38,243 bases of DNA from Acidihalobacter prosperus. GTDB lineage: Bacteria; Pseudomonadota; Gammaproteobacteria; DSM-5130; Acidihalobacteraceae. Of the stretch, positions 12,681-17,039 are shown in pieces. Made by a program: the position numbers and the translations under genes. The notes beneath the pieces were generated by a model. It did no database searches, was not told where the DNA came from, and was given only the letters and a program-made list of their open reading frames with translations. Numbering within the stretch: position 1 is the first letter of the stretch; each line of letters opens with the position of its first letter. Where the stretch lies: contig NZ_JQSG02000006.1 in assembly GCF_000754095.2 (NCBI RefSeq), positions 143,430 through 181,672 on the forward strand, read 5' to 3'.

Positions 12681-14135
12681 TCATGCGAAGCCGTGCGGGA
12701 TACGGGTGTGCCAGTCGGTGGCCTGCTGGAAGCGATGCGCCGCGTTGAGCATGCGCCCTTCCTCGAAGTAGTTGCCCACGATCTGCAGGCCCACCGGCAG
12801 GCCGTCGGCGAAGCCGGCGGGTACGGACATGCCCGGGAGCCCGGCGAGATTCACCGCGATGGTGTAGATGTCGGACAGATACATGCTCACCGGGTCGTCC
12901 ACCTTCTCGCCGATGCGAAAAGCCGTGCTCGGGCTGGTCGGGCCGAGAATCAGGTCGACCGATTCGAAGGCGCGGCGGTAGTCCTCGCTGATCAGCCGGC
13001 GCACCTTCTGCGCCTTGAGGTAGTAGGCGTCGTAGTAGCCGGCCGAAAGTGCGTAGGTGCCGACCATGATGCGCCGCTTGACCTCGTCGCCGAAGCCCTC
13101 GCCGCGCGAGCGCTCGTAGAGATCGGTAAGGTCCTTCGGGTTCTCGCAGCGGTGGCCGAAGCGCACGCCGTCGAAGCGCGACAGATTCGACGAGCATTCC
13201 GCCGGCGCGACCACGTAATAGGCCGGCACCGCCAGATGCGTGTTCGGCAGGCTGACTTCGCGCACCTCGGCGCCGAGCCCGCGGAACACCTCGACCGCGG
13301 CCTCGATCGCCGCCGCCACGCCGGTATCCAGCCCCTCGCCGAAATACTCCTTGGGCAGGCCGATGCGCAGGCCCGCGAGATCGGCGTCGAGACCGGCCGC
13401 ATAGTCGGGTACCGGGCGGTCGATGCAGGTGGAGTCGCGCGGATCGAAGCCGGCCATCGCGCCAAGCAGCAGCGCGCAGTCCTCGGCGGTGGCCGCGAAC
13501 GGGCCGGCCTGATCGAGGCTCGAGGCGAAGGCGACCATGCCCCAGCGCGACACGCGTCCGTAGGTCGGCTTGATGCCAGTGACGCCGCACATCGAAGCGG
13601 GCTGGCGGATGGAGCCGCCGGTGTCGGTACCGGTCGCCGCCGGCGCAAGGCGCGCGGCCACGGCGGCGGCCGAACCGCCCGAGGAACCGCCCGGAATGCG
13701 GTCGGTGTCCCAGGGGTTGCGCGCGGGGCCGTAATGGCTGTTCTCGTTCGACGACCCCATGGCGAACTCGTCCATGTTGGCCTTGCCGAGCATCACCATG
13801 CCGGCATCGCGCAGACGCTCGACCACGGTGGCGTCGTACGGCGCGACGAAGTTGTCGAGCATGCGCGAACCGCAGGAGGTGCGCACGCCGTCGGTGCAGA
13901 ACAGGTCCTTGTGCAGCAGCGGGATGCCGGTCAGCGGGCCGGCCGTGCCGGCGGCGATGCGTGCGTCGGCCTCAGCGGCCTGGGCCAGCGCCTGTTCCTC
14001 GGTGACGGTGATGACGGCGTTGAGGCCGTCGCGGTGTTGCCGGATGCGATCGAGGTACAGACGCGTCAGCTCGACGCTGCTGATCTCGCCCGCGGCCAGC
14101 GCCCGGGACAGTGCTGCGATGGTTTTCGTGTGCAT
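12681..14135 (-). CDS. gatA: Asp/Glu-tRNA amidotransferase subunit A (glutaminase)
   Basis: Amidase-signature subunit that releases ammonia from glutamine for GatB. The Ser-cisSer-Lys triad is visible: Lys76 in PLLHKDLF, Ser151 in [11 protein letters not shown], and nucleophile Ser175 in [13 protein letters not shown]. Length 484 is typical. The sequence between ([17 protein letters not shown]) is the classical amidase signature. It lies 24 bases downstream of gatC and upstream of gatB, forming a complete gatCAB operon divergent from mreB. Confidence 0.97.
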
Positions 14136-14159
14136 GCGGATTCCGTGGGGTTTACGGGC

Positions 14160-14447
14160 TTACTCGATGACCTTGGGCACCAGGTACAGACCCGCCTCGA
14201 CGGCCGGCGCGATGGCCTGGAAGCGCTCGCGGGCATCGGGCTCGGTGACCGCGTCGGGGCGCAGGCGCTGGGTCGCATCCTGCGGATGCGCCATCGGTTC
14301 GACGCCCTCGGTGGGCGCGGCCTCGAGCTGCTCGACGAAGTCGAGTATCGAGGACAGGTCGTGCGCATAGGCCTCGACGGCGTCGGCGGCGAGCGCCAAA
14401 CGCGCAAGATGTGCGATGCGCCGAACCTCGTCGGGAGCAAGGGACAT
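14160..14447 (-). CDS. gatC: Asp/Glu-tRNA amidotransferase subunit C
   Basis: A 95-residue protein, the usual GatC size, which wraps around the GatA-GatB interface and stabilises the complex. Start MSLAPDEVRRIAHLARLAL, then ILDFVEQLEAAPTEGVEPMAHP and the C-terminal ALYLVPKVIE-like ending (here AGLYLVPKVIE) match the family. A GAGG lies 10 bases before the ATG at 14447. It is first in the gatCAB operon and divergent from mreB, with 151 bases between the two starts. Confidence 0.96.
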   Translation of the reverse strand: MSLAPDEVRRIAHLARLALAADAVEAYAHDLSSILDFVEQLEAAPTEGVEPMAHPQDATQRLRPDAVTEPDARERFQAIAPAVEAGLYLVPKVIE

Positions 14448-14515
14448 GGTGGACCAACCTCGTGAACGAATTGAAATGCGGGGCGCAAGGGCTGGAAAAC
14501 TACCACAAACCCGCC

Positions 14516-15630
<1,115 letters not shown>

Positions 15631-15666
15631 TCGCGCCGACAAGCCTGCAGACGGGGAGCGCCAGGC

Positions 15667-16554
15667 ATCAAGCAGCCACTGTTCAACCTGGGCCCCACGC
15701 AGCACCTCAAGCTGGTGCTGCTGATCGCGCTGTCCGTCGCCCTGATGACCGCCGACCAGCGCCTTGCGGCGCTGCGCGAGGCGCGCAGCACGCTGGAATA
15801 CGTCGTCTACCCGCTGCAGATACTGGCCAGCCTGCCCAATCGTGCCGGCCATTGGCTGGGTGAAGCCTTCAGCAGCCATACCCAGCTCATCGAGAGCAAC
15901 CGCCGACTGCGTCGCGACAATCTGCTGCTGGAGGCCAAGCTGCAGAAATTCCAGGCACTGGCCAGCGAGAACGCTCACCTGCGCCAGTTGCTCAATGCCT
16001 CCGAGCACGCCAACGAAAAGGTCAAGATTGCCCGTCTCGTGTCGATCGACCTGGATCCGTACAGCCAGCGCGAGCTGATCAACCAGGGTAGCCGCAACGG
16101 CGTCTACCGCGGCCAGCCGGTCATCGACGCCACTGGTCTGATGGGGCAGGTGATACAGGTCGGGCCGTTCAACGCGCAGGTGCTGCTGATCGCCGATCCG
16201 AGCAGCGCGGTGCCGGTGATCGACACCCGCAGCGGCTTGCGCCTCCTGGCCATCGGCACCGGTCAGCCCGACGCCCTGGACGTGCGCAGCGCACCCGTCA
16301 ACGCCGATATTCGCGTTGGCGACCTGCTCAGCACCTCCGGACTCGGCGAACGCTTTCCCCCGCACTACCCCGTGTGCCAGGTGACTCAGGTTCGCCGCGA
16401 GCCGGGCGACCCGTTCGCCAAGGTCCTGTGCCGGCCGACCGCCCAACTGGACCGTCACCGGGAAGTCCTGCTGCTCTGGTACCACCCGGCGCACAAACCG
16501 GATGCGGCGGAAACCGAGCCCGCGACTCCCGAACGGCACGGAAAACACAAATGA
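15667..16554 (+). CDS. mreC: Rod-shape-determining protein MreC (apparent ATC start codon)
   Basis: Bitopic inner-membrane protein linking MreB to the periplasmic elongation machinery. From the proposed start it reads KQPLFNLGPTQHLKL, a transmembrane segment (about residues 13-26), a periplasmic coiled coil (about 50-105, SNRRLRRDNLLLEAKLQKFQ), then the beta-barrel domain with LVSIDLDPYSQRELINQGS and a GRNLLSTSGLG-like GDLLSTSGLG. The frame has no ATG, GTG or TTG between the mreB stop and a GTG at 15715. GGGGAG at 15653-15658 is ideally placed (8-base spacing) for the ATC at 15667, and the resulting N terminus suits MreC. Starting at 15715 would drop 16 residues and has no ribosome site. A sequencing error in an ATG is the main alternative. 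Confidence 0.9.
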   Translation: MKQPLFNLGPTQHLKLVLLIALSVALMTADQRLAALREARSTLEYVVYPLQILASLPNRAGHWLGEAFSSHTQLIESNRRLRRDNLLLEAKLQKFQALASENAHLRQLLNASEHANEKVKIARLVSIDLDPYSQRELINQGSRNGVYRGQPVIDATGLMGQVIQVGPFNAQVLLIADPSSAVPVIDTRSGLRLLAIGTGQPDALDVRSAPVNADIRVGDLLSTSGLGERFPPHYPVCQVTQVRREPGDPFAKVLCRPTAQLDRHREVLLLWYHPAHKPDAAETEPATPERHGKHK

Positions 16555-17039
16555 CCACTCCGGTCAGGCGCAATCTGGGCATTCTGCTCACGCTCGTCAT
16601 TGCCCTCAGCCTGAGCGTGATCGCCATGCCGGCGGCATTGACCGCCACCCGTCCCGAATGGGTGGCCATGGCGATCATCTACTGGAGCATGGCACTGCCG
16701 CGACGCGTCGGCCTGGGTACCGCGTGGGTCACGGGGCTGCTGCTCGACGTCCTCACCGGCTCCCTGCTCGGCCAGCACGCCCTGGCGCTCACCGTCGTCG
16801 CCTACCTGAGCATCCGCACCCACCAGCGCGTTCGCGTCTATCCCTTGTGGCAGCAGTCGATCGCCGTCGGCCTCATGCTGGTGGTCTACCGCATACTGCT
16901 GCTTTGGGTATACGGCATCACCGGGCACGCGCCCGACCAGCGCGCGTACTGGATTCCCGTACTCACCAGCATGCTGCTGTGGCCGCTGATCTTTCTGCTG
17001 CTGCGCCACATCCGCCGGCGTCTGCACCTTACCGGCTGA
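16551..17039 (+). CDS. mreD: Rod-shape-determining membrane protein MreD
   Basis: A 162-residue polytopic inner-membrane protein with about five hydrophobic segments: LGILLTLVIALSLSVIAMP, WVAMAIIYWSMALP, TGLLLDVLTGSLLGQHAL-ALTVVAYL, SIAVGLMLVVYRILLLWVYG and SMLLWPLIFLLL. The motif GLLLDVLTGSLLGQHAL is diagnostic for MreD. The start overlaps the mreC stop as ATGA with GGA upstream. It completes mreBCD and ends with a basic cytoplasmic tail (RHIRRRLHL). Confidence 0.95.
   Translation: MTTPVRRNLGILLTLVIALSLSVIAMPAALTATRPEWVAMAIIYWSMALPRRVGLGTAWVTGLLLDVLTGSLLGQHALALTVVAYLSIRTHQRVRVYPLWQQSIAVGLMLVVYRILLLWVYGITGHAPDQRAYWIPVLTSMLLWPLIFLLLRHIRRRLHLTG

Follow-up and report, generated by a model that had tools for sequence, protein, structure and literature searches.

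The mreC gene of Acidihalobacter prosperus appears to be translated from an AUC codon, not from AUG, and start codons of the same class appear to be widespread at mreC in the Gammaproteobacteria, where they were read at most loci, including those of Pseudomonas. Throughout, ATH stands for ATT, ATC or ATA, and ATG, GTG and TTG are referred to as canonical. The original prediction of an AUC start was made for a stretch of 38,243 nucleotides (the window), and it is strongly supported by the ATH codons present across the class, by the Shine-Dalgarno sequence that precedes the codon and by a boundary of protein-level selection at the codon.

The mreBCD locus and the mreC start region

The forward strand of the window carries reading frames in the order mreB-mreC-mreD, of which mreB and mreD were identified by eye. 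The first gene of the operon, mreB (14599..15630), is a 343-aa open reading frame with an ATG start, and its TAA stop (15628-15630) lies in the same frame as mreC. Counted from the proposed ATC start codon (15667..15669), mreC (15667..16554) contains 295 codons and ends in a TGA stop at 16552-16554; the predicted protein matches the Pfam family MreC (PF04085) with an E value of 3.7e-37 and is the single mreC match in the genome. The ATG of mreD (16551..17039), a gene named by its place as well as by eye, overlaps the mreC stop as ATGA.

After the mreB stop, the codons of the mreC frame are TCG CGC CGA CAA GCC TGC AGA CGG GGA GCG CCA GGC ATC (15667) AAG CAG CCA CTG TTC, and the first residues predicted from the ATC are M-K-Q-P-L-F. 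The claim that this frame lacks ATG, GTG and TTG from the mreB stop up to a GTG at 15715..15717 was borne out by the sequence, which leaves no in-frame canonical alternative before that codon. The Shine-Dalgarno sequence GGGGAG was correctly placed at 15653..15658, 8 bases before the ATC, and its duplex with the 16S tail has an energy of -7.3 kcal/mol. For the GTG, located 16 codons downstream of the ATC and described earlier as having no ribosome site, the corresponding energy is +0.1 kcal/mol. Two CTG codons, at 15679 and 15688, were also considered as mreC starts and rejected on account of weak ribosome sites (-2.5 and -0.8 kcal/mol, respectively).

The 121-base leader at 15600-15720 of the window gave a fold with a z score of -2.6 (2 of 200 shuffles were as good), in which GGGGAG pairs with bases 3' of the start. 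Across 167 ATH loci, the 63 bases around the start were not unusually structured (mean z score of +0.21, with five loci below -2), and the same stretch was likewise without unusual structure in the five family genomes. No Rfam family reached its gathering score within 14000-17000. Furthermore, no promoter-like or terminator-like consensus was found between 14400 and 15760, and a single mreBCD message is therefore an assumption. Elsewhere in the window, a tRNA-Gln (TTG) was present at 2761-2835 on the minus strand, with neighbors that by eye resemble ribose-phosphate pyrophosphokinase and IspE.

Comparison of the same codon in relatives, proposed as a check along with the original prediction, returned ATC or ATT and no ATG. 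Across the three species of the genus, A. prosperus included, the start codon is ATC, ATT and ATC, and GGGGAG is kept in both other species, before the ATT and the ATC. Two genomes from another genus of the same family both contain ATC at the mreC start, so that an ATH start is conserved in 5 of 5 genomes from the genus and family. One of the two (L005) contains an additional TTG 30 codons upstream. A codon-level selection test on the genus-mates had 4 synonymous and 4 non-synonymous differences to work with, from three species only.

Survey of mreC starts in the Gammaproteobacteria

The class survey comprised 158 distinct genomes, taken from 30 of 52 matching genomes and from 130 loci ranking high by E value among 341 matching genomes, two repeats (L039, L040) being left out of the 130. 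A further set of named loci consisted of the best 80 of 549 and is hence close to the A. prosperus MreC. Four named loci duplicating survey loci were dropped, which gave 234 distinct class loci; the positional profile, the Shine-Dalgarno background, the mreB and mreD counts and the sister pairs given below were obtained before this removal. Loci were anchored on a conserved LF motif by means of an N-terminal profile, which succeeded for 132 of the 158 survey loci and for all 80 named loci.

The positional profile placed ATH three codons before the L of LF in 87/132 survey and 67/80 named loci, and a canonical codon at this position in 20/132 and 8/80, respectively. One place earlier, in the KQPLF types to which the window belongs, ATH was present in 11/132 survey and 8/80 named loci. 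At any one place farther upstream, ATH was present in between 0 and 9 loci (in the named set, no more than 7/44), and downstream of the start ATH codons were ordinary isoleucine codons. The peak of ATH at the start position is more than chance.

An alignable N-terminus was found in 208 of the 234 distinct class loci, comprising 165 with ATH, 30 with a canonical codon and 13 with neither, the last lacking any start-like codon at the three places that were inspected. The 195 classified loci, for which one or two extra residues were allowed as in the KQPLF of the window, contained 68 ATT, 62 ATC, 35 ATA, 25 ATG, 4 GTG and 1 TTG. In 150 of the 165 ATH loci no in-frame canonical codon was present upstream as far as a stop or 40 codons, while 15 contained one. 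Among identified organisms, ATT was read in Pseudomonas fluorescens FW300-N2E3 and P. putida 31800, ATC in P. delhiensis, Ectothiorhodospira lacustris and E. shaposhnikovii, and ATA in P. panipatensis. Eleven further class loci stand outside these counts, six with ATG (L272, L275, L276, L278, L280, L293) and five with ATH (L273, L274, L282, L284, L288).

Of the 26 survey loci (out of 158) whose N-terminus could not be aligned, 13 contain an ATG in frame ahead of the membrane segment. Three other unanchored loci (L062, L084, L124) have ATH but no canonical codon, and L063 ends at a contig edge. Extra residues before K-x-L-F (e.g. I-A-P-A-K-P-L-F), with an isoleucine codon slightly upstream, were observed in L059, L072, L104, L115 and L147, where the start may be shifted in position yet still be ATH. 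The single TTG locus (L204) is doubtful, with an ATC directly after the TTG. L117, one of the loci without a start-like codon at the three places, has GTT in place of ATH (V-K-H-L-F after a nearby stop) and possibly uses it as the mreC start; GTT is proposed as the sigR start of two Streptomyces in passages of PMC5472188.

A closer view was obtained from the family of genome G426, which was taken for the Pseudomonadaceae as its MreC resembles named Pseudomonas MreC. The search covered 59 genomes from 19 genera and gave 57 matches; one of these, in G511, took in the C-terminus only, which left 56 genomes with a readable start. All 56 carry ATH (37 ATC, 18 ATT and 1 ATA) and none ATG. An in-frame canonical codon within 40 codons upstream was present in 10 of the 56, a scoring that does not take in L355.

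Selection at the start and alternative readings

Protein-level selection was estimated as pN/pS over codons +1 to +13 and compared with the same frame just upstream. The respective values were 0.14 and 0.93 in 15 Pseudomonas-type loci, 0.00 and 1.28 in four Ectothiorhodospira, 0.22 and 0.78 in eight Sedimenticola/Thiodiazotropha-type loci, and 0.47 and 0.97 in all 154 ATH loci with the codon at the usual place, the groups being hand-picked from titles and related sequences treated as independent. Judged by these ratios, protein-level selection starts at the ATH codon, and this boundary gives indirect support to a translation start with fMet at the same codon. In addition, the MreC chain of PDB entry 7eft has the N-terminus of the E. 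coli MreC translation, and its Met1 falls opposite the ATT of P. fluorescens.

These data bear on where else mreC translation might begin. The GTG at 15715 has in its favor that no other canonical codon comes earlier in the mreC frame, and if it were used, the codons before it would be untranslated; yet it lacks a Shine-Dalgarno sequence, the downstream distance to the next canonical codon in ATH relatives varies between 2 and 97 codons, and the 13 codons that follow ATH in relatives are under protein-level selection. It was rejected as a start, which we consider very improbable, since its use would remove the K-P-L-F type N-terminus that is under purifying selection in relatives, and would cost part of the N-terminus present in E. 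coli MreC. The shared frame of the mreB stop and mreC in the window would also allow ribosomes on mreB to continue into mreC by reading through the stop or shifting frame, and MreC would then have no start of its own. Such an arrangement is extremely improbable given that the frame is shared in 35/114 loci (29/101 ATH and 6/13 canonical), or about one in three, that a properly spaced Shine-Dalgarno sequence lies ahead of the ATH codon, and that no protein-level selection is seen directly upstream of it. A sequencing or assembly error, with ATG misread as ATC, had been named as the chief alternative to an AUC start. It has only prior odds to recommend it, and the four family relatives, with ATT, ATC, ATC and ATC, speak against it, as does the occurrence of ATC, ATT and ATA at the same place in independent genomes at the level of genus, family and class; the chance of such an error is considered negligible.

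Compensating features and evolution of the start codon

Taking a duplex of -5 kcal/mol or below with the 16S tail as a strong Shine-Dalgarno sequence, 154 of the 165 ATH starts had one versus 11 of the 30 canonical starts (p 3e-8, with related sequences counted as independent). The 165 ATH starts had leaders of at least 60 bases, and background places in the same loci reached this threshold in 120 of 990 cases. The spacing from the Shine-Dalgarno sequence to the start was mostly 4-8 bases in ATH loci. Furthermore, the second codon was AAA or AAG in 149/165 ATH loci versus 10/30 canonical loci, again with related sequences counted as independent.

Minimum changes were counted on a FastTree phylogeny of the 195 MreC, giving 44 changes among ATC, ATT and ATA and 14 between ATH and canonical codons. 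Among 63 sister pairs from a 199-row tree, 14 differed within ATH and 4 differed as ATH versus canonical. The third base thus drifts among C, T and A and seldom reaches G, which suggests that selection keeps a weak start. The position of the start, its conservation, the boundary of selection and the compensation by leader and second codon are what these comparisons show.

Neighboring genes, infC and other classes

Comparison genes were read in a similar manner. For mreB, 115 loci contain a conserved N-terminal motif, and in 114 of them an in-frame ATG lies at most 19 codons before it; the one exception is truncated at the end of its stretch, and seven more loci were without the motif. For infC, ATH was found 9-12 codons before a conserved motif in 22 of 26 motif-bearing loci (30 fetched), the starts not being fixed individually, and the infC of A. 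prosperus has ATC near its N-terminus. In 71/128 loci mreD starts at position -1 with respect to the mreC stop, the same spacing as the ATGA overlap in the window, and in 120/128 it starts within -10 to +20. Because of this overlap and its recurrence, mreD translation is probably coupled to that of mreC.

Beyond the class, 11 loci could be read from 71 matching genomes of the same phylum, and ATH was present in 0 of the 11. These loci have ATG, TTG or GTG 125-126 codons before the MreC domain; in the other phylum classes, TTG, likewise a weak start, was observed at that constant place in L277, L285, L286 and L287 and GTG in L292. The ATH start of mreC may be confined to the Gammaproteobacteria, as judged from this small sample of 11 out-of-class loci.

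A proposed role for initiation factor 3

With AUC, AUU or AUA as the start codon, only two of the three bases pair with the anticodon of the initiator tRNA, and initiation complexes paired in this incomplete way are destabilized by IF3. We regard it as likely that mreC is translated from the AUC at 15667, that this start is weakened by IF3 and kept by selection, and that it holds MreC and MreD below MreB. The ordinary initiator tRNA would place fMet at the AUC, and the mispairing of this codon, together with discrimination by IF3, would make for a weak mreC start, while the strong, well-spaced Shine-Dalgarno sequence and the AAA/AAG second codon would keep the weak start usable. From one mreBCD message, MreB would be made freely and MreC at a lower level, as would MreD, with its start overlapping the end of mreC. 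Selection would retain the weak start class across much of the Gammaproteobacteria and leave the third base free among C, T and A. That the start is weak, that IF3 acts on it, that mreBCD forms one message and that protein ratios shift as a result is inferred from known biochemistry. The codon class, the conservation and the overlap with mreD all agree with the earlier suggestion, which may hold, that an AUC start sets a low MreC:MreB ratio or ties MreC to initiation-factor levels.

Passages of PMC5472188 describe IF3 as repressing non-canonical starts, by which infC is autoregulated, and in Streptomyces describe a repression of sigR by IF3 through a GTC start that sets the SigR:RsrA ratio. 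In vitro, according to an excerpt of PMC10158994, raising IF3 to 1.5 uM brought the full-length share of the AUU/CAU-anticodon pair down to 31.1%, while that of matched pairs rose. By analogy with infC, sigR and these in vitro data, AUC would lower the translation of mreC relative to mreB. Since infC and mreC share a start class, it is further conceivable, although we hold this only tentatively and below an even chance, that mreC is under constant control by IF3 in much of the Gammaproteobacteria, with free IF3 per ribosome setting the output of MreC and of the coupled MreD. On the shape of cells under IF3 knockdown, the available portion of an imaging study (PMC12262249) left infC out.

The AUH start could also be real but purposeless, having been fixed once and tolerated through a strong Shine-Dalgarno sequence, with MreC neither low nor regulated. 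The strong Shine-Dalgarno sequences and AAA/AAG second codons that accompany ATH are as expected of compensation, and several lineages have ATG. Nevertheless, ATG is one base away, and yet 56/56 genomes of the Pseudomonas-type family have ATH, with ATC, ATT and ATA all in use; the 44 versus 14 minimum tree changes point the same way, part of that gap being mutational (easy C-T transitions). A purposeless start is for these reasons considered unlikely, and a weak start maintained by selection is preferred.

Relation to known non-canonical starts

The textbook IF3-repressed gene is infC, which encodes IF3 and shares the AUU/AUC start class with mreC in the same bacterial class; in A. prosperus an ATC lies near the infC N-terminus. 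The two differ in that infC feeds back on itself, whereas mreC encodes no translation factor and would be a target of IF3 only. In E. coli, pcnB starts at AUU; it resembles mreC as an AUU-class start outside infC but differs in gene and function. The mreC of E. coli has its start at the same position and an N-terminal K-P-I-F, and differs in its ATG and in a weak Shine-Dalgarno sequence (-3.0 kcal/mol). The same organism retains ATT in infC, as given in a passage of PMC5472188.

Another likeness is with sigR of Streptomyces, for which sections of PMC5472188 describe a non-canonical start that had been overlooked in favor of a canonical codon, with a strong ribosome site and conservation in relatives; there the start sets the ratio of two proteins from one operon, as proposed here for mreC. 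According to the same sections, the sigR codon is GTC, not ATH, the case concerns one genus, and sigR was proven by experiment, whereas mreC is known from sequence. The retrieved part of PMC11445065 covers GTG/TTG-type starts and contains nothing on AUU. A search of open-license PubMed Central texts yielded, among the papers listed and as far as their retrieved portions extend, no report linking mreC to a non-canonical start, though one might be contained in older papers or in those under closed access. An IF3-discriminated AUH start is of a known kind; the literature searched contained no description of mreC as a widespread example.

To our knowledge, bacterial genes starting at AUU, AUC or AUA have been thought of as only a handful of curiosities, infC foremost. 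That a core morphogenesis gene keeps an AUH start in many families suggests a purposely low rate of MreC synthesis and raises the possibility that IF3 and cell shape are directly linked. Gene callers limited to ATG, GTG and TTG would misplace the mreC start in such genomes. IF3 rises in the cold, and if mreC is indeed its target, the cell-elongation machinery would be linked to the condition of the translation apparatus, e.g. with less MreC being made under such conditions. The finding bears on how MreB:MreC:MreD ratios are set and on cell width in relation to growth.
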